Position numbers and translations under genes: made by a program. Shown piece after piece: positions 3,936-40,055 of a stretch of 64,000 bases of DNA. The stretch comes from Prorocentrum cordatum (Eukaryota > Sar > Dinophyceae > Prorocentrales > Prorocentraceae). Location: the NCBI GenBank assembly GCA_963575745.1, contig CAUYUJ010020557.1, positions 1 to 64,000 on the forward strand. Direction: 5' to 3'. The notes under the pieces were generated by a model. The model ran no database searches. It was not told the origin of the DNA and saw only the letters and a list, made by a program, of their open reading frames with translations. How positions within the stretch are numbered: position 1 is the stretch's first letter; every line of letters begins with the position of its first letter.

Positions 3936-5320
3936 TCGGTGTGATTCCAGCGCGGACCCAGAACACTGAATCAGGGCAGTAGATGTTGGGCAATGCAGGC
4001 TCAGTGCAAATCAATGGGAAACGGTGCGAAGCAATGCAAAGCAACGCAAAACAACAGACGCCATTCAAGAACAATGGCCAAGTGCGACCCGCGGGAACAA
4101 ACCCTGCACCGAGAGATCTGAAACAACTCATGACCTCATCTCATGGCCACAACACATGGCGAAACCGTGGGCACAGCGAATAGCACCCAGACGTCTGCGG
4201 CACCCATGGCGCAACCCATGGCCGCAACCAGCGATGCGCCACCTCAAGTCCAATGGTTTGTTCGAGAGAGGTGCGATTGTTTGAGGGATCCACGGAATAC
4301 CAACACCGGCAGGCCAAATGACACCATAAAAACCCAATGAGTATTTTTCACCCGACCCATCTGGCAAGCGCCATGCCTGCTCGCCCTGGCTGAAGGCCGG
4401 CGGTAGTCTGCCCTGTCGGCGTGGGCTTGTGCTCGAGCCACTGCAGAGGAGCGTCGCGCAGTGCAGAGAACCCGTGCGCCTATGCAAGCAATGGGTAACT
4501 CAGTCGACGCTTGGTTCTGCTACCACAGAAGCCACGAGGCCACCAGCCAAGAAACAACAGGAACACCCCCAAAGGCGCAAACATCCAAGAAACTGCCAAG
4601 ATGAAATTGTGCGGAACTGTTCCGTGCAAGAGGTGGGTGTGGACGCAAGCAGGTCCCCTGAAACGGGCGGGGGTCTCTGCGTTCGACAGGCGCCAAGACA
4701 GCTGACCAAGTGAGAAGCAGACGGGCGGCATGGAGGGGAGAGTGGGGGTGAAATCTGCACCAACCGGTCGGGGAAAGTAGGTAGAAACATGAAGTAGGAA
4801 AGTGGAAATTGATTGGATTTCTGCCCGCCTCCAGAAGAAGAGGGAAGAGGGAACACCACTCGACTCGTAAAGTAGGAGGGCGCTGAAAGTAGTTGGAATC
4901 TGGGGATCCAAAGATACAGATTTTCAACAACCGATGTGTACAATGACCCCCCCCCCGTGCAACATCATCCTTGCACCAGAGGGAGCGGGGCACTTCAGGA
5001 CCACGTCCCAAAAATCATTCCGACCACCCAGAACAATATCGAAACAGTGTCGAACGAGCATCGCCCCTCAAGGCCAGACGTGTGAACACCCTGCAGTATC
5101 GGCATGTTCTCCTTGCTCGGAAGTCTTTCTGGTGGTCAAGGCTAGCGTATGTTGGAGCATCATCGCCTCCGCCGTGCAATCATCCTTCTGCCATGGGGAC
5201 AGCTGGCTCAGGAACGAAGCGTCTTTTTTTCCTGGCCACGACGAACCTCGGCCACGAACAAAATCCCCGACCCCCTTGCCGAACCCCCGACCTTGTTTTG
5301 CGGACGGCAGCGGGCAGGGG
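3936..5320. other. Near-unique sequence, nothing recognised
   Basis: This stretch of lower GC has no gene, RNA or complete repeat that I can support. Around 4130-4240 short CCATGG and CACAACCATGGC-like words recur loosely. Confidence 0.4.
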
Positions 5321-32018: not shown

Positions 32019-32568
32019 AGGAGGAGGAGGAGGAGGAGGAGGAGGAGGAGGAGGAGGAGGAGGAGGAGGAGGAGGAGGAGGAGGAGGAGGAGGAGGAGGA
32101 GGAGAGGAGGAGGAGGAGGAGGAGGGAGGAGGAGGAGGAGGAGGAGGAGGACAGGAGGAGGAGGGATGAGAGGAGAAGAAGGGGGAGGAGGAGAGTAAGG
32201 AGGGGGAGGAGGAGGAGGAGGAGGAGGGGAGGAGGAGGAGGAGAAGGAGGAGGAGGAGGAGGAGGAGGTTGTTGTGGAGCGGGCTAAGGAGGAGGAGGAG
32301 GAGGAGGAGGAGGAGGAGGAGGAGGAGGAGGAGGAGGAGGAGGAGGAGAGAGAGGAGGAGAGAGGAGAGGAGGAGAGAGGAGAGAGGAGAGGAGGAGGAG
32401 GAGGATGAGAGGAGGAAAAGGGGAAGGAGGAAGGAGGAGGAGGATGATAAGGGGGAGGAGGAGGAGGAGGAGGAGGAGGAGGAGGAGGAGGAGGAGGAGG
32501 AGGAGGAGGAGGAGGAGGAAGGAGGGGACAGGAGGAGAGGAGGAAGGAGAGGAGGAAGGAGAGGGTGA
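32019..32568. repeat. Long GGA/GGAGGAAGGAGA tract
   Basis: About 550 bp of (GGA)n with variants. The last 30 bases consist of the 12-bp unit GGAGGAAGGAGA, which also starts the tract on the far side of the LINE at 39655. Long frames (poly-Glu, poly-Arg, poly-Gly, poly-Ser) are not genes. Confidence 0.95.
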
Positions 32569-32726
32569 GGGTGAGGGCCACCGAGAGCGCGTCCGATCCG
32601 AACACGCCTCAGGAACAGATGGGACCCTGAGGGCCGCAACGCGGCGGAAATATTATGAACTGAGAGGGCAGGCGGGGGCCAGGGAAAACCGACGCCACAA
32701 AACCGCTCCCAGGAGGGCGAGACGAG

Positions 32727-35700
32727 TTACGTCTGCGCCTTGCCCTCGGGGCGCTTGGGGCGCCCTGGTCGGCCGTGGAAGATCCTGTCGATCAACCCCA
32801 GCTGATTAGCCCTCGTGCTCGGATTCTCTGAGAGCCCAGCACAGGGACGACGGAGCTTCCGAACGCTCCGTGACGTCTCGAGGGTCGTCGTGCCAGCACA
32901 CTTGCGGCAGCAGTAGACCGAATTCACACAAAAAACGTCATGGCCCAGTGCCGCAAATTCGGCAATGAACTCGTTCGACCCCGAACTGTTTGAAACCTCG
33001 CCTACGGCAGGCTCCTGGGGAGGGTCCGTGTGCCCAGGAAGGGGACCCTCCGAGGCCTCTGAAGGCCCTTCCCCAAGAAACTGCGCGACAATGACCTGTG
33101 ACGGGGCGATGCGGGGGTCCGACACTTTGACCCAGACCTCCACCGAATTCTTAAACCATTCCGCACAGGCTACCCTCTGGAGGCTAGAGGGCTCACATCT
33201 CCTTCCCGACCCCGTCATAAGCCACGCTAGGGTCGAGTCCGATCGAGCCGATCTCCCACAACTCCTGCACCTGTGCTCGTTGGGTCTCTTGCACCACCAA
33301 AGCTCATGATCAGAACCCCGTCCGAACACGACTGGCTGCCCCAGGATCTCACGGGCCTCAGGATCCTGAACGGGTGGCGGGGGACCTCGGCCCCAACTCT
33401 CCGAGGCGATAACACGTAAGCACGCCCATGACACAAACTGCAACGTGGCCTTATGGACCTTCAGGGCCTCCGAGAGCGACTGGGAAACCGTGTTGGCGAT
33501 CATGTGGTGCGCCGCACCCGCCTTGGCGAAATAATCAGCCCAGGCATTGCCGAGCCAGTTCTCCACCTCTTCAGGATTCTCCAGCACACTGTCGAGGTCA
33601 CGGTGTGCAGGAGTCCACTCAAAACGAACAGGGTACTCAAGTACCCGACGCTGCGCAGCCTGAAAAATCTCTCGCCATATCCTGGCGTGCTTGCCTCGGC
33701 CGTGCTGGAGGGATTGATCCCAGGAATTGCCCTCGGTAACCAGTCCCAGGAGGTCAGACGCGATCAGCTCGTGATCAGGATGACATTCCAAACCCATTTT
33801 GATCGCATATCTCTCAGCACGGCCAACAGTCTGCACATAGAAGGGCAGGGGTCCATACACAGCACGGACAGGCAAAAGAGTCGTGGGGTCAAGCTGGATG
33901 CATGAATACCCGCACCGCCTAGTCTCTGGAACGCTGGAGGCGAGGCCCGAACCGTCGGTGTAGCTCTTGGGGCCCCAAGGCCCGTCGGTGTCGCCCCAAA
34001 GGAGAACTTCTGTGCTTATAGTGTCGAGCCCAGGAATACCCGCGGGAGGAGCAGGGACCCCGAAGACCAGATAATTGGACTCCCAAGCCAGACGCCCATC
34101 ATACCATTCGCCCCCCTTCAGGAGCATGCCTCTGGTTGCCTCCAAATCCTCTGAGATGTCCAAGAAGTCCTCGCGCTGCTTGAGCAGCTCGGGGCAGTCG
34201 TAGAGCACGTGGCCCCAAATACCCTGAGACTGGGCCCCACAAGCAGCACGCGGCCTGATTGGTACCTTGTGGCGGGCATCTTGGAGCTGAGGGATGGGGC
34301 GGTTTCCCGACCAGTGCGCTTGGAGGGCCCCGAGTCTACGAACGCACTTGATACTCTTCACCGAGTTACGTAAGTCTCGGTGCCATATCTGCTCGCCAGG
34401 TCCAGCAGTGTAAAAATGCTTGAGCAGCCGCTCGTCCTGCCAACGCTGGATCCCCTGAGTGAGGAAGACCTTCAGGTCGGCAGGGCACATAACTCGCAAG
34501 TCGAAAACGTTGCCTACATCATCAGCCACCATATGACTAGATACTAGATTCCACCCGATACGTCGTAAGGTCAGCCAACAGGCCCCGATCGGGCCCCGAG
34601 TATTTGCCCAAGACAGTGTGCCAATCCTATCTCGAAGAGCCTCCCAAGCCCGATGTAAACGACTGTCGGGTATTCTCCTGTCCCAGACCCACTCCGCAAA
34701 CTTGATGACAATGGCTAGAGTGGCGTGGTAAATAGGATCGTAGAAATCGCTCTTGTGGCTAACCAAGTAGGCAGTCACACCAGTGTTAAATTTACCTGGC
34801 GCGCCGTTCAAGACGGCGGCGAAAAGACGCAACTCTCGAAGTACAACGCCGCTTACTCCAGCAACTGCAGCACCGTGCGCCACTGATGGAAGGGCGCCTG
34901 TGCGCCACAGAGCCGTCGCGACCTTGCCGACAGCAGACTTCAGCATGGAAAACCTCGCCTTCCTCTCTCTGAGCTGTTTGAGGCGCTTCTTTTCCATGCC
35001 CCGAATCACCTTGGGCCCCGTGGGCTCGTGACCTAGGTTCCTCATGTGGCCTTTGTGCGGGATCTTCATGGAGCCCATGTGGCGCTGCACCCCCTTCCAG
35101 AACTTCCGAGAACCAACAACGGCCCCAGACTTGGAAGCCTTCAAGATCGTGCCGAGGCCCTTGGAGTCCTGGACGAAACCCCTCGCCGCCAGCGCAAGGC
35201 ACTTGGCCTCCGTAGGGTCCTGGGAGGTATGTTGGAGCCCAATGTCGTCCATGAGCGTCCTCGGGGTCACCGTGGGGGAGACCTTCGAGACCCTCTGCAC
35301 CGACCTATAGGTAAGCAAGTACAAGACGTACGTAGCGTGAGTACACCCAGCTAGGATCCCTTGGAAGGACCGAAACCCTCTGGATACACTCCCAAAGGCC
35401 CTTATACGACGGGGCTGTTGGTAGCTCTGAATGAGGAGCCACAGCAGACGTAGTGGAAACCCCAGAGCCTGGCCTTCTCGGAGCAACGCATGTGGGTCCA
35501 CCATGTCGTAACACTTGCTCATATCAAGCAAGATCGTACATGTCTGTTCCCCCAACAACTGCGCAACCTCCGGCTGAATATTATGATCAAACGCCGAGTC
35601 CGTAGATGTGTGGCCCGCTCTCGTGCCCCACATCTGGTCGCACTGGTAGCCAGCCTGCCACGCTGCCGAGACTGGTCTTCTGAGCTTGCCCCAGATACGC

Positions 35701-37577
35701 ACCAAAGCGTGAGATAGCACAATCAATCGTGTGTCCCCGTCAGGTTTAGGTAAGCGAACCATTTCACTGTAAACCCGCTCAGGAGGCCAGGACAGCCACT
35801 GCTCGAAAAACATAAACATCTTGGCCATGCGCTCGAGCGCTTGGTCCGGCAGAGCGTCCAGGCATCTGGGTGAAATTCTGCTCGGCCCAGCTGCCGTCCG
35901 CGTCGAAAACTTGCGAATGGCAGCCCGCACTTGCTGGTGGTCGAGCTCGGGCAGAGCAGGCCAACTCTCGTGGCCTGGCGGCAGCCCTGGGGGCAACAGG
36001 TCGTGATGCCGCCATGCGCCTTCCCACGCGTCAAGGGTGTGGTTTGCCAGCAGGTACGGCTGAGCGTTCACGTCGAAATTGAGCTGCTCCTGCTTGCCGC
36101 GCACCTTGGAGGCTGCATGGGCCCGACTGGCCCCACCTAGAAAAGCCTGCTTGGCCCAGCCTCGCCAAGCCTTCTCCGAGGCCCCTCTCGCTGCCTTCAG
36201 CACCTCATCGGCCTTCCTCGTGATGTTGTCCAGGCCCGACTCGAAGTCAGCATCGCCGATCATGCCCAGGCCTCGCAGCAGGAAGTCTACGGTGTCCTGA
36301 TCTAGGTAGTGGCATGTCTTCTTGTCGCGGGCGATCCTGCGGCAATATTGGTCCACCTCGTAGAAGGCCTGCAACACCTTGGTGTACTGCAGGGGCGTTA
36401 GCTGGCAGACCACTGAAGCCAACTGTAACCGCTGACAAAACCTGCCCAGTCGGTCCCGCTCCGACCTGAGATGCTGACACCATCTCTTGGCCGTCGCCCA
36501 AGCATAGACCTTTGGCTCGCGGTACGTACGCCGACGCGGAGGTTCCCATGCCAGCAGCTTCCACTTGAAACGTGGAGGGCCTGACCTGCCAACGAAAGGG
36601 ACCGCGTCCTTGTCAACCTTGTCATACCGCCCTGCCAGCTCGAAATCGATACCGTCCAGGACCGTGTCCCACAGCAGGGCCAAATCTGTAACCTCCTTCA
36701 CTTCCAGAAAAACATGGTCCACTGCCTCCCACGGGTACGGGAACCTGGCGCACCCACATGGCGGAGTAACAGGGAAAGCCCTTGGCTCGTCTGGCACGAG
36801 ACACCATGCTGGCCTATCTTTGCCCAGGAGGTCAATGCTAACTGGGTAATGCGGAGGTGGTATTGTGCCGTACATGTCCTCCACCACTGCGGCCCCGAGC
36901 CTTGACGACAAATTTGCACGCGCGATGAAGTAATCGATCGTAGACTTGCCGTCCTCCTTGCAGCACGTGGCCGACGCTGGCGTGTAAGACAACCCAGCAA
37001 GAGACTCAATCCACCTCCTCGCATTCAGAGCTGCTATGTCAGAATTCCAGTCACCTGCTAAGATCCAATCGAAACCCGCAGCATTCCAGGTCGCAGCTCT
37101 CTGCGCTATGGCCCACAGCATGGAAAGGTTCTCACCCGCCAGCCCAATGCTAGTCACTAAGTAGGCACTGACCACACTCACCCCCCCAGGAACGCCCCAA
37201 TTGACAAAGCTGGCAACCACTCTGCCTGGGTAGATGATGGGGTCGCCGTCAGGAGGCGTCGTGATCATCACGTTCGTGGGCACCAATATTGCGACCCCGC
37301 AGTGATTGGCCTGCGGGCCCCTAGCGTTGGTCGCCAGGGCTGGTGCCCACATCCCGTGGAGACCGAGGTCCTTGGCGCGGTGCTGGAACTCCCCGAGGCG
37401 TGACTCCACAATCCTCGTCTCCTGTGCACAAATGATCTTGGCCTTCGCAACAGCCAGGAAGTCGAACAGTGGCCCGAAGGAACCTGCATTCACCGACATA
37501 ATTGTTCCCGCAATGGCGGGTGAAGAAGATTTTCCCTCCAACTCGCCCGTCTTAGATATATCGGACCCGACGCTCAT
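32727..37577 (-). CDS. LINE ORF2: endonuclease, RT, RNase H
   Basis: A 1616-aa frame from the first ATG (37577) to TAA at 32727. It remains open upstream to a TAA at 37626, so a longer N-terminus by readthrough is possible. Domains in order: APE endonuclease, about 25-250 (NAGSF, CAQETR, GDWNSD, STIDYF, HYPVS); reverse transcriptase, about 550-830 (motif A LLDMSKCYDMVD, motif B GILAGCTHA, motif C LMDDIGL); a Cys/His region near 1110-1130 (CGAQSQGIWGHVLYDC); RNase H, about 1200-1360 (YTDGSG, GRAERYA, ASDLLG, TPAHRD, NAWADYFAKAG); and Cys/His motifs near 1430-1440 (WWCKRPNEHRCRSCG) and nearer the C-terminus (YCCRKC). It would nick target DNA and copy the element RNA. Motif B lacks the usual PQG and motif C is MDD, not YADD. 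No internal stop or frameshift. Confidence 0.92.
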   Translation of the reverse strand: MSVGSDISKTGELEGKSSSPAIAGTIMSVNAGSFGPLFDFLAVAKAKIICAQETRIVESRLGEFQHRAKDLGLHGMWAPALATNARGPQANHCGVAILVPTNVMITTPPDGDPIIYPGRVVASFVNWGVPGGVSVVSAYLVTSIGLAGENLSMLWAIAQRAATWNAAGFDWILAGDWNSDIAALNARRWIESLAGLSYTPASATCCKEDGKSTIDYFIARANLSSRLGAAVVEDMYGTIPPPHYPVSIDLLGKDRPAWCLVPDEPRAFPVTPPCGCARFPYPWEAVDHVFLEVKEVTDLALLWDTVLDGIDFELAGRYDKVDKDAVPFVGRSGPPRFKWKLLAWEPPRRRTYREPKVYAWATAKRWCQHLRSERDRLGRFCQRLQLASVVCQLTPLQYTKVLQAFYEVDQYCRRIARDKKTCHYLDQDTVDFLLRGLGMIGDADFESGLDNITRKADEVLKAARGASEKAWRGWAKQAFLGGASRAHAASKVRGKQEQLNFDVNAQPYLLANHTLDAWEGAWRHHDLLPPGLPPGHESWPALPELDHQQVRAAIRKFSTRTAAGPSRISPRCLDALPDQALERMAKMFMFFEQWLSWPPERVYSEMVRLPKPDGDTRLIVLSHALVRIWGKLRRPVSAAWQAGYQCDQMWGTRAGHTSTDSAFDHNIQPEVAQLLGEQTCTILLDMSKCYDMVDPHALLREGQALGFPLRLLWLLIQSYQQPRRIRAFGSVSRGFRSFQGILAGCTHATYVLYLLTYRSVQRVSKVSPTVTPRTLMDDIGLQHTSQDPTEAKCLALAARGFVQDSKGLGTILKASKSGAVVGSRKFWKGVQRHMGSMKIPHKGHMRNLGHEPTGPKVIRGMEKKRLKQLRERKARFSMLKSAVGKVATALWRTGALPSVAHGAAVAGVSGVVLRELRLFAAVLNGAPGKFNTGVTAYLVSHKSDFYDPIYHATLAIVIKFAEWVWDRRIPDSRLHRAWEALRDRIGTLSWANTRGPIGACWLTLRRIGWNLVSSHMVADDVGNVFDLRVMCPADLKVFLTQGIQRWQDERLLKHFYTAGPGEQIWHRDLRNSVKSIKCVRRLGALQAHWSGNRPIPQLQDARHKVPIRPRAACGAQSQGIWGHVLYDCPELLKQREDFLDISEDLEATRGMLLKGGEWYDGRLAWESNYLVFGVPAPPAGIPGLDTISTEVLLWGDTDGPWGPKSYTDGSGLASSVPETRRCGYSCIQLDPTTLLPVRAVYGPLPFYVQTVGRAERYAIKMGLECHPDHELIASDLLGLVTEGNSWDQSLQHGRGKHARIWREIFQAAQRRVLEYPVRFEWTPAHRDLDSVLENPEEVENWLGNAWADYFAKAGAAHHMIANTVSQSLSEALKVHKATLQFVSWACLRVIASESWGRGPPPPVQDPEAREILGQPVVFGRGSDHELWWCKRPNEHRCRSCGRSARSDSTLAWLMTGSGRRCEPSSLQRVACAEWFKNSVEVWVKVSDPRIAPSQVIVAQFLGEGPSEASEGPLPGHTDPPQEPAVGEVSNSSGSNEFIAEFAALGHDVFCVNSVYCCRKCAGTTTLETSRSVRKLRRPCAGLSENPSTRANQLGLIDRIFHGRPGRPKRPEGKAQT

Positions 37578-37625
37578 GCTACCACGTCCGAGATCCAAAT
37601 GTTCATCAGCGGGGGCGGAGGGAGA

Positions 37626-38393
37626 TTACAAGGCTGCACCTGCAGCCTCATCGCGTTCTGACTGACGTATTCCCAAGGGGTTCGGGCAAATAGTGGGGAA
37701 GAGGTCGTCAGCTTCTCGATATTCGTCAAGAAACTCGAAAGGGTCGTACTCCCCGTCCATGTTTGATCCCACCATGGCCCCAATAGGTCGGTACCCTCTG
37801 CCGTCCGATGTCGGGGCAGGCTCGCAGCGAGGCGAAGAGGGTGAGTGGTGCGTGCCGCGGGGGCCCATGGCCTCCCGCGGTCGGTACTCTCCGCCCTCAG
37901 TTGTCCTCAATGCTGCTTGCCCGCTGTCGACGGACGGTGAGCAGTGCGTGCCTCCTGGGGCTGAGAATGTCATCGATGCACACCCCATCTGCGAAGCAGA
38001 AGCCGCACTCTGCAGGGTGCACGATGCACGGGGTTCCACCTCAGCGCTCTGCTCGGCAGGCCGAGTGAGCATTGCTGAGGGTAGCCAACTCGTGCCAATA
38101 CCATTCTCATCCCAAGAGACATGTGCCGATGACGCAGACGCAACCGCCCCCCGTGACGTACACGATGCACGGGGTTCGACCCCAGGCCTCTGCTCGGCAA
38201 GCCGAGTGAGCCTCCCTGGGGGTAGCCGACGCGCGCCAATAACCTCAGACACATCCCAGGAGGCACTTGCCCACGGTGTAGTGCTCGCCGCCGACGCCGT
38301 GGTCCTCCCTGGAGTCGTAGGTGAAGCTGATACCCCGCTTCGAGGGGACACATCATTGCTTGCCGTCATTGCTGCTGCAGAACTGAGTAACAT
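37626..38393 (-). CDS. LINE middle ORF, 255 aa, unknown function
   Basis: An ATG at 38393 lies 22 bp after the ORF1 stop, and the frame runs to TAA at 37626, 48 bp before the first ATG of ORF2. It is in the same frame as ORF2, separated from it by that single stop. The first two thirds are Ala/Ser/Pro-rich and contain a duplicated segment (LTRLAEQRPGVEPRASCT and LTRPAEQSAEVEPRASCT). The C-terminus is acidic and aromatic (NMDGEYDPFEFLDEYREADD). No known domain. It may be a separate protein, an N-terminal extension of ORF2 (by readthrough or a stop-gained mutation), or just a spacer that happens to be open. Confidence 0.5.
   Translation of the reverse strand: MLLSSAAAMTASNDVSPRSGVSASPTTPGRTTASAASTTPWASASWDVSEVIGARRLPPGRLTRLAEQRPGVEPRASCTSRGAVASASSAHVSWDENGIGTSWLPSAMLTRPAEQSAEVEPRASCTLQSAASASQMGCASMTFSAPGGTHCSPSVDSGQAALRTTEGGEYRPREAMGPRGTHHSPSSPRCEPAPTSDGRGYRPIGAMVGSNMDGEYDPFEFLDEYREADDLFPTICPNPLGIRQSERDEAAGAAL
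38021..38280 (-). repeat. Tandem duplication inside the LINE
   Basis: Two imperfect units of about 120-140 bp share CACGATGCACGGGGTTC, CTCTGCTCGGCA, GCCGAGTGAGC and GGGTAGCC. They give the duplicated peptide of the middle ORF. Confidence 0.75.
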
Positions 38394-38415
38394 TCCAATC
38401 CCGATATTGACGAAT

Positions 38416-39465
38416 CTACTGTTTGCGAGCCCTCTTGCACGCTTCAATGTACGTCGTCTGGAACCGCTTGAACCTCTCCGTGACTGCCTCGGCGGAGACG
38501 CTCTCGTCCGTGGGGATTCCTGCAGCATTGAGCGTGGCCCGCATGTCCTCCTCCCCCATCTCGATGTCTGAAATTTCATCATCTTCAGGCTCTTGTGCAG
38601 GTGGCTCTGGAGCCTGGGGCGAGGGTGGCTTTGCCTGCGGCGCCTGCTGCAGCTTGGTGACCGTCTCCGCCATAGCTTGTAGCCCAGCCGTAAGATCAGG
38701 CCCCAAGCCCAGAGTACTGGCGACACGCCCCAGCTTTTCCACCGACACCGCAAACCCAGGAAGCATCTCATGGAGCGTGGGCGGCCGTTCCTGCTCTGGC
38801 GGGCGGGCCTGGGACATGGCTTTGCGCGTATCCTCCTCGAGCCCGACCACTTCAGCGGAAGCCTCCACGAGCTTGGCCTCAGCCTTGTCCAAGTGTCCCT
38901 GCAGCTCCAGGATCTTGGCTCTCTGCTCCTCGACCGCCCTGCGTACGCTGGACTCGTGGGACCTCGCATGCTGGAGCTTCGCCGCCAGCGATCGAGCCTG
39001 GTCCTCAATCGGGCGTCCGTCAAACAGCTCCCGCTCCAAAGTCTCCTTCTCCTTCTTGAAATTGGCCAGCACCGTCGCGTCCCTGTCGGAGGAGAGCATG
39101 GGCATGATGGAGTCCAGCTCCTTGATGCGCTTGCGTTTCTCCTCAGCTCCGTCGGGCTGTGACTGCGCCCATGGTGGTGGCGGTGATGGCTCAGCCTTCT
39201 CTGCGGTGAGCCTCTTGACCTGTTCTTCGAGCTGTGCACACCGAGCAGCGAGGCCTTTGTCCACTGGGCTGGGGCCCTTGGATCCCGCAGCATGGACGCT
39301 GGGGGTCTTTCCTCGCTTGTACTCTTTGAACACCACCGACTTATGAAGCTGACACTGCTTGCAGTACAACGTACCTCCTGCATTGAACCACGGCTTGCCA
39401 GTGACAGAGTGGACGCACGACTTGCATATCCACGGTTCGTCAGCAGCAACCCTCCGAGGAGCCAT
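38416..39465 (-). CDS. LINE ORF1: zinc ribbon and coiled-coil protein
   Basis: A 349-aa frame from the ATG at 39465 (MAPRRVAADEPW…) to a stop at 38416. Residues 14-38 contain two CxxC pairs (WICKSC and LYCKQC, spaced like a zinc ribbon). Residues about 70-205 are charged and heptad-like (KRIKELDSIMPM, NFKKEKETLERELF, EEQRAKILELQGHLDKAEAK), predicting a coiled coil. A Pro-rich stretch (PPSPQAPEPPAQEPEDDE) and a short basic C-terminus (ACKRARKQ) follow. By analogy with other LINE ORF1 proteins it probably binds the element RNA as an oligomer; that role is inferred from position and architecture only. The 5' UTR back to the spliced leader is 167 nt. An alternative longer frame upstream of the ATG uses no ATG. 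Confidence 0.8.
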   Translation of the reverse strand: MAPRRVAADEPWICKSCVHSVTGKPWFNAGGTLYCKQCQLHKSVVFKEYKRGKTPSVHAAGSKGPSPVDKGLAARCAQLEEQVKRLTAEKAEPSPPPPWAQSQPDGAEEKRKRIKELDSIMPMLSSDRDATVLANFKKEKETLERELFDGRPIEDQARSLAAKLQHARSHESSVRRAVEEQRAKILELQGHLDKAEAKLVEASAEVVGLEEDTRKAMSQARPPEQERPPTLHEMLPGFAVSVEKLGRVASTLGLGPDLTAGLQAMAETVTKLQQAPQAKPPSPQAPEPPAQEPEDDEISDIEMGEEDMRATLNAAGIPTDESVSAEAVTERFKRFQTTYIEACKRARKQ

Positions 39466-39632
39466 GGCGTTCGCAGGAGACTGGGCCACGGGCTCCTGTG
39501 CTGGGAGGCCGTGCCGCAAGCTGCGATGCGTGGGGCGGACCACGCACCGCTCTGCCTGGGGCGAACCAGGCGAAGGATGAAAGCTGGCCGCGGACTAGCG
39601 GTATCCACTTTGTTCCCTGGGGAAACCAAAAC

Positions 39633-39654
39633 CTTGAGCCAAAATGGCTACGGA
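39633..39654 (-). other. Dinoflagellate spliced-leader sequence fused to LINE
   Basis: The minus strand reads T followed by CCGTAGCCATTTTGGCTCAA and G, a perfect match to the 22-nt dinoflagellate spliced leader (first base degenerate D, here T). It is followed at once by GTTTTGGTTTCCCCAGGG and the LINE 5' UTR, and preceded by minisatellite. Because the leader is normally joined to mRNAs by trans-splicing, a genomic copy at this position means the element was copied from a trans-spliced transcript. It is not a spliced-leader RNA gene: no donor GT with an Sm site follows. Confidence 0.93.
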
Positions 39655-39830
39655 GGAGGAAGGAGAGGAGGAAGGAGAGGAGGAAGGAGAGGAGGAAGGA
39701 GAGGAGGAAGGAGAGGAGGAAGGTAGGAGGAGACGAGGACAGGAGAAGGAAGGAGGAGAGGAGGAAGGAGGACGGAGAGGAGGAGGAGGACGGAGGGGAG
39801 GAGGAGGGAAGGAGGGGGGGGGGGCAGGAC
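39655..39830. repeat. GGAGGAAGGAGA minisatellite, 5' flank of LINE
   Basis: About five perfect 12-bp units GGAGGAAGGAGA, then looser GGA repeats. The same unit ends the tract at 32541-32565 on the other side of the LINE. Confidence 0.9.
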
Positions 39831-40055
39831 GAGGAGGAAGAGGGCCAGGAGGGGAGCAGGAAGTTAGGGCGGGTCCGGCCAAGGGGGGGGATGGGGGGGG
39901 ACCTCCAGCGCCCGCCGCTGCGGCTCCGAGAGGGCGTGCAGTAGGAAGCTGCGGCGCTGCTCCTGCGGGGCCGATGGTTTCGCTCCCCTGCGATGTCGCG
40001 GCAGTTCCAGGGGCAGGAGATCGGCGGCGAGCGGGGGTGGGAGTGAGAAGGGGAC

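Follow-up and report, generated by a model that had tools for sequence, protein, structure and literature searches.

Host spliced leaders at the 5' ends of LINE retrotransposons in the dinoflagellate Prorocentrum cordatum

Why should a LINE with an endonuclease and a reverse transcriptase of its own begin with the spliced leader of its host? The question is raised by a locus of Prorocentrum cordatum lying in a window of 64,000 nt (positions 1 to 64,000 of contig CAUYUJ010020557.1, assembly GCA_963575745.1), the whole stretch of DNA analysed. An exact 22-nt dinoflagellate spliced leader (DinoSL), TCCGTAGCCATTTTGGCTCAAG, occupies positions 39633-39654 on the minus strand, which is the coding strand of the LINE, and forms the 5' end of the copy; the same junction is found in sibling copies. 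This site is the sole match in the window at up to 3 mismatches, and no match was obtained in 100 shuffles. The original prediction, made from the letters of the window, had placed a perfect leader on the coding strand at the point where the LINE meets a minisatellite, 167 nt upstream of ORF1. All three statements hold: the leader is exact and on the coding strand, it adjoins an array of the 12-nt unit GAGGAGGAAGGA, and the distance from its end to the ORF1 ATG is 167 nt. The minisatellite is present at the other end of the LINE too, and the first two leader bases (TC; 39653-39654) also fit the array, so that the exact 5' base of this copy is ambiguous by two positions.

The element extends from leader base 1 at position 39654 to position 32565 (7090 nt, about 7.09 kb) and has intact reading frames, all on the minus strand. 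It is of the APE type, with a reverse transcriptase and an apurinic-type endonuclease in ORF2, target-site duplications and no LTRs; long terminal repeats are absent, since BLAST of the element against the window returned only the element itself and an internal spacer repeat. The 5' UTR behind the leader (39466-39632, 167 nt) contains the motif GGATACCGCTAGTCCGCGG at 39588-39606, 26 nt behind the leader. ORF1 (38416-39465, ATG at 39465 to stop at 38416) is an open frame of 349 aa, in which an N-terminal CxxC..CxxC arrangement was recognised by eye as zinc-finger-like. The only ORF1 homologue retrieved, P0008 from P. cordatum, is 91% identical and shows weak coiled-coil-type Pfam matches. The spacer between ORF1 and ORF2 (37599-38415) holds an 81-nt direct repeat (85%), found by the same BLAST comparison; on its coding strand it also contains a long open frame, and residues 367-412 of P0008 match the spacer.

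ORF2 (32727-37598) is a frame of 1623 aa with Pfam matches to an apurinic-type endonuclease (residues 35-231; Exo_endo_phos, 2.7e-5) and a reverse transcriptase (residues 617-827; RVT_1, 4.5e-7). An RNase H-like motif was seen in ORF2 by eye only, with no Pfam match for RNase H. Seven protein homologues of ORF2 were found, and those named, P0001-P0004, are all from P. cordatum. In three of them (P0001, P0002 and P0004) unrelated N-terminal parts appear, by eye, to be fused to pieces of LINE ORF1 or ORF2, and P. cordatum gene models of this kind may be inflated by LINEs. No relative of ORF2 was found among solved structures by phmmer at E 0.001 or in the viral collection, and no sequence like the 5' UTR was found in the phage collection. 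The 3' UTR (32565-32726) ends in ..CCCTCACCCTCAC with no poly(A), and a sibling copy (C183) has the same 3' end.

The minisatellite at the 5' side (39653-39840) is a pyrimidine tract on the LINE coding strand. An exact 28-nt repeat flanks the LINE, with its 5'-side copy at 39653-39680 and its 3'-side copy at 32537-32564, and is the candidate target-site duplication. When the two flanks were joined, the 12-nt register of the array was perfect (80/80) only with 4 nt removed among the 13 offsets from 0 to 12, the remaining 12 offsets giving 72-76/80; because the unit is 12 nt long, the true duplication is 4, 16 or 28 nt. The same script gave 68/80 with 28 nt removed, a value that reflects the extension of the compared stretch beyond the regular part of the array.

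The C183 sibling starts with the same leader and is 7091 nt long against 7090 nt for the window copy. The two copies were compared over 1,081 of 7,091 nt and are 99% identical in the first 128 nt, 96% in the 467 nt that follow and 98% in the last 486 nt. The flanks of this sibling are unrelated to those of the window copy, and they contain a target duplication of 14 nt with one mismatch (CCGGCAAGGGGAAG / CCGGCAAGGGAAAG), which was aligned by eye, an exact script search having given none. Genome-wide, an exact 34-mer fusing the last 8 leader bases to the first 26 nt of the window family occurs in 81 copies. A BLAST search with the 367 nt behind the leader was scored for 40 matches among 580 first-look candidates. 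Of these 40, 24 reach the first base after the leader: 16 are long matches at 96-100% identity, including the window copy, and 8 are of 123 nt at 96%. The 81 exact junctions include 20 of these 24. The four others (C21747, C5903, C4025 and C17984) may have a single-base difference within the 34-mer or be without a leader; the first three of them are, among the scored matches, those most closely related to the window copy (98-99%).

The leader is not confined to this family. The assembly (4,128,499,153 bases, or 4.13 Gb, in 21,875 contigs) contains 14,218 exact copies of the 21-nt leader (7201 + 7017) and none of the reversed control. Together with the absence of matches in shuffled sequence and the recurrence of the same junction in many contigs, these counts leave a chance match or an assembly artefact with a negligible probability, and no support for either was found. 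For the first 30 leader sites listed, 3 kb was read at each, except for one of 2.2 kb, and 20 of these were extended to about 10 kb. Fifteen of the 20 lead into sense-strand homology to LINE reverse transcriptase or endonuclease, with Pfam support in 6, and five (L036, L042, L046, L050 and L051) show no such homology within about 10 kb; not every leader is therefore shown to head a LINE. Seven of the loci (L034, L038, L041, L043, L048, L049 and L052) match the ORF2 of the window copy. In the stretches compared, the ORF2 frames of L035, L037, L039 and L040 have 27-35% identity among themselves; they have no BLASTP match to the window ORF2 at 1e-3, while L037 and L047 are 91-94% identical. The reverse transcriptase of L037 matches R2 and LINE-1 structures alike, by sequence. 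Judged from these comparisons of sequence, leader-headed copies span several LINE families in the P. cordatum genome, and the proposed search for leader-tagged copies yielded the 81 exact junctions of the window family as well as several other families. The loci L004, L008, L010, L020 and L022 have an ATG opening a long frame directly behind the leader, in which case the leader would be the entire 5' UTR.

A LINE residing in, or targeting, SL RNA genes would also carry a leader, as target DNA. Such elements exist: SLACS, CZAR and NeSL target SL RNA genes. The GT that follows the leader in the window resembles the start of an SL RNA intron, and leader or leader-like sequence lies shortly past the presumed element end on the 3' side of L052 and L053. 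The latter cases look like neighbouring leader-headed insertions, as if the elements had inserted side by side, and neither the window copy nor the C183 sibling has a leader in its 3' flank. Each of the 30 loci (2.2-3.0 kb) contains exactly one exact leader, and the sequence behind it varies among them (ATG, GTT, GCC, CCA), so neither SL RNA sequence on both sides of a LINE nor SL arrays were found. With LINE homology behind 15 of 20 leaders, the match is not part of an SL RNA gene repeat, which the original prediction had named as grounds for abandoning it, and an origin of the leader as target DNA is very improbable. The first 61 nt showed unremarkable SL RNA-like folding (z -0.79), and Rfam gave no match in the window at gathering thresholds. 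The stretch GTTTTGG behind the leader in the window was considered as a decayed relict leader and dropped, 131 of 2000 shuffles scoring equally; sibling copies show that it is the window family's own start.

A second sample was drawn with the motif GGATACCGCTAGTCCGCGG, first seen 26 nt behind the leader in the window, L004 and L010. It has 2272 exact copies in the genome (1146 + 1126), with none of the reversed control, and the first 40 sites listed were read over 239-240 nt each. The leader was exact in 27 of them, with one edit in 8, two edits in 1, three edits in 2 and six edits in 2, so that 38 of 40 have it within 3 edits, or 36 of 38 without L054 and L055, which are L004 and L010. In the two six-edit loci CCG was seen by eye still at the expected place, and these leaders look decayed or partly deleted. 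Having been chosen from leader-headed loci, the motif gives a result that covers motif-bearing 5' ends, not all LINEs in the genome. Between leader and motif, 26 loci have a gap of 26 nt and one a gap of 25; eight have 38-40 nt, two have 41 and one has 54, with two loci not scored; the gaps of 41 and 54 equal a shorter gap plus a 15-nt relict.

This regularity bears on the suggestion that the reverse transcriptase switched template from a truncated LINE RNA onto SL RNA. Template switching is how LINE-1/U6 chimaeras arise, and it would likewise place SL sequence at the 5' end. Copying would then begin at the 3' end of the SL RNA, its intron included, and truncations would scatter, but the 38 loci fall into few spacing classes (25-26 or 38-40 nt, or these plus 15 nt). 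Post-leader sequence also differs between families, which argues, in a comparison made among the elements, against a common SL RNA intron. We regard template switching as highly improbable. Upstream of the leader, the 38 flanks (up to 80 nt) have no common 14-mer with four or more purines, and only pyrimidine words are common to them. Shared non-leader sequence continuing upstream in other copies, another finding that would have counted against the prediction, thus did not appear among the 38 loci, and the C183 sibling lies in unrelated DNA.

What is seen directly is a leader joined at the splice junction, lying as the outermost sequence of the element, with the target duplications outside it. 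The explanation that we consider very probable, on the strength of these sequence patterns, is that trans-splicing would set the 5' end of the LINE RNA, and that this RNA would be copied through to the first bases of the leader. An element RNA, perhaps read through from outside, would gain the capped 22-nt DinoSL at a fixed acceptor that immediately precedes the first base of the element itself. The ORF1 protein and the endonuclease/reverse transcriptase, if they act as in related LINEs, would use this leader-capped RNA and nick a CCT/AGG-type microsatellite or another site. Reverse transcription, beginning at the 3' end without poly(A) and running to the first nucleotides of the leader, would then turn the leader into DNA at the tip of a full-length copy. 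In later rounds the copies would be trans-spliced anew: in a minority the new leader would join at CCGTAG inside the resident one, leaving a 15-nt relict, and in the majority a single leader would result again, most simply through splicing at the terminal AAG of the resident leader. The same mechanism would hold for several LINE families in the genome. That the window copy derives from a trans-spliced full-length RNA whose 5' end is marked by the leader, as was originally proposed, is supported by the lack of common upstream sequence among the copies compared and of any SL array at the loci read.

Repeated trans-splicing is recorded in the relicts. One exact 15-nt relict follows the leader in 1,202 cases (622 + 580) and two in 167 (86 + 81), the joint being CCGTAG|CC, and the existence of both classes indicates that copies were trans-spliced repeatedly. 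An intact relict accompanies 8.5% of the exact leaders (1,202/14,218), and 13.9% of those with a relict have two (167/1,202); from these two rates, an intact relict is left in a minority of passages. The low relict rate is not explained by the simplest form of the model, in which splicing takes place at CCGTAG every round. It also limits the use of the leader for dating full-length copies, which the original prediction had envisaged: stacked 15-nt relicts do count some passages, but with 91.5% of exact leaders lacking an intact relict they are no full generation clock. At one locus (L068) the relict ends in CAAA, while those of L007, L012, L017, L019, L087 and L089 keep CAAG; in this single case it is as if loss of the terminal AG of the resident leader had forced splicing at CCGTAG.

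The same 91.5% favours the main rival explanation, in which the leader is the element's own DNA and start site, transcription beginning at the genomic leader mostly without new trans-splicing and selection preserving it. In the available text of PMC12014239 the TTTT box of DinoSL is proposed as a promoter, which would suit such a start site. The 1,202 and 167 relict arrays show that re-splicing occurs, however, and the 8 one-edit leaders carry different substitutions, as expected of decay after insertion and not of inheritance. Across 27 motif-picked loci, the leader has a mean pairwise identity of 94%, against 60% for the 26 nt that follow it and 39% for 21 nt past the motif. These loci have a gap of 26 nt and were admitted at up to 3 leader mismatches, L087 being compared at its relict; this admission rule favours high leader identity, by a small bias since 38 of 40 loci pass it. 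The fall to 60% immediately behind the leader speaks against the start-site explanation, although the contrast fits strong selection on the leader as DNA as well as renewal from the SL RNA pool. On balance an element-encoded start site seems unlikely, though it deserves more weight than the other alternatives, and trans-splicing remains the preferred account of the 5' end.

The surroundings of the leader indicate where such elements insert. Pyrimidine tracts lie upstream of the leader in 29 of the 38 motif-picked loci and purine tracts in none (0/38), each tract class making up 2.4% of window positions and 1.8-2.0% of positions in the 10-kb loci; motif-bearing LINE insertions are thus enriched in pyrimidine tracts, a microsatellite preference. 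In the 24 nt before the leader of the first 30 leader loci listed, 15 are at least 90% pyrimidine, 7 at least 90% purine and 8 neither, and in 27 of the 30 a T precedes CCGTAG. Leader-headed insertions behind purine (GGA-type) tracts on the coding strand were observed at L006, L013, L016, L018, L019, L021 and L023, which suggests families with the opposite strand preference. Regarding the ends, L038 has a poly(A) end and an exact, unique target duplication of 14-15 nt, L040 and L044 have 16-nt matches, and L037 and L047, which lie at different CCT tracts, have the same 3' end.

Exact leaders also turned up in three contigs of the viral and GTDB collections, the latter having been scanned for the leader only. 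An AT-rich IMG/VR contig (L001) carries two exact DinoSLs on the minus strand, at 2746-2766 and 2893-2913, 147 nt apart, one of them 45 nt before a GC-richer ORF of 254 aa, as if a leader-headed cDNA had entered the genome of an algal virus. The two other contigs, binned as Dehalococcoidia, have an exact DinoSL within 1-60 (L002) and at 4334-4354 (L003). In one of them it lies behind a (CAT)n tract and in the other GTACGC follows it, much as in an SL RNA gene; both are probably either chimaeric contigs or dinoflagellate DNA that entered the bins.

A joint reading of these observations, offered tentatively and with somewhat less than even confidence, is that the LINEs have left the making of their 5' end to the host and would not depend on a fixed transcription start of their own. 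Such elements would insert in pyrimidine (CCT) tracts, where the leader with its AG would form a ready 3' splice site, and a read-through transcript would be trimmed and capped exactly at the tip. Each round would bring a fresh leader from the SL RNA pool, either exchanged one for one via AAG or added by a 15-nt ratchet via CCGTAG, and the same machinery would supply the reverse transcription for dinoflagellate retrogenes. In hindsight leader-headed LINEs follow from the statement that dinoflagellate mRNAs generally acquire the leader; what surprises is their regularity, their number and the targeting of CCT tracts. No description of leaders as LINE 5' ends was found in open-licence papers, in the text available for them and excluding supplements.

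The finding matters for retrogenes in particular. The available part of the review PMC6050394 leans towards LTR elements as the source of the reverse transcriptase that makes them. A direct candidate for this role is a LINE that would copy leader-capped RNA as far as its first nucleotides, and the CCT-tract preference, target duplications and 3' ends of these LINEs provide tests that can be applied to retrogene insertions. Since 15 of 20 sampled leader sites head LINEs, counts of retrogenes by an upstream DinoSL may need a filter for reverse transcriptase. For the elements themselves, the leader shows where a full-length copy begins and which way it runs, and stacks of relicts record repeated passages.

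Among known systems, the window element agrees with APE-type non-LTR retrotransposons in having ORF1, an ORF2 with endonuclease and reverse transcriptase, short target duplications and no terminal repeats, and differs from them in that its 5' end is a host spliced leader in place of an element-encoded start. With SLACS, CZAR, NeSL and the trypanosomatid LINEs that carry the Pr77 5' sequence it shares residence in an organism with leader trans-splicing. Unlike SLACS and NeSL, for which the SL gene is the target, the P. cordatum leader would belong to the copied RNA. The transcripts of Pr77 LINEs are described as unspliced in the accessible portion of PMC8190864. Target-specific LINEs include HERO and Togen in microsatellites and the APE-type Tx1 and R1 clades at other targets (PMC4640811, in the part available). 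A strong preference for simple repeats is common to HERO, Togen and the P. cordatum elements; the latter differ, in a comparison by target and not by clade, in using CCT/AGG-type tracts with a strand preference in the motif-bearing families.

Dinoflagellate retrogenes with a relict DinoSL (DinoRL) are well known, as the original prediction stated, from what is available of PMC6050394 and PMC12014239, and the CCGTAG|CC relict joint has been described for them in the latter source. The resemblance, as far as those texts go, covers a leader encoded in DNA before a coding region, relicts of 15 nt at CCGTAG|CC and tandem relicts. Here, by contrast, the leader heads an autonomous LINE with defined ends and target duplications, and does so in several families; a genomic DinoSL precedes the coding region as in a retrogene, but the element is not a copy of a host-gene mRNA, because it encodes its own reverse transcriptase and endonuclease. 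Endogenous dinoRNAV copies are likewise RNA-derived insertions with a leader: in the available text of PMC10235124, DinoSL lies within 500 bp of 6 of 26 RdRp copies, and LINEs are suspected as the machine. Those copies are virus-derived passengers, whereas in P. cordatum it is the LINE itself that bears the leader at its tip.
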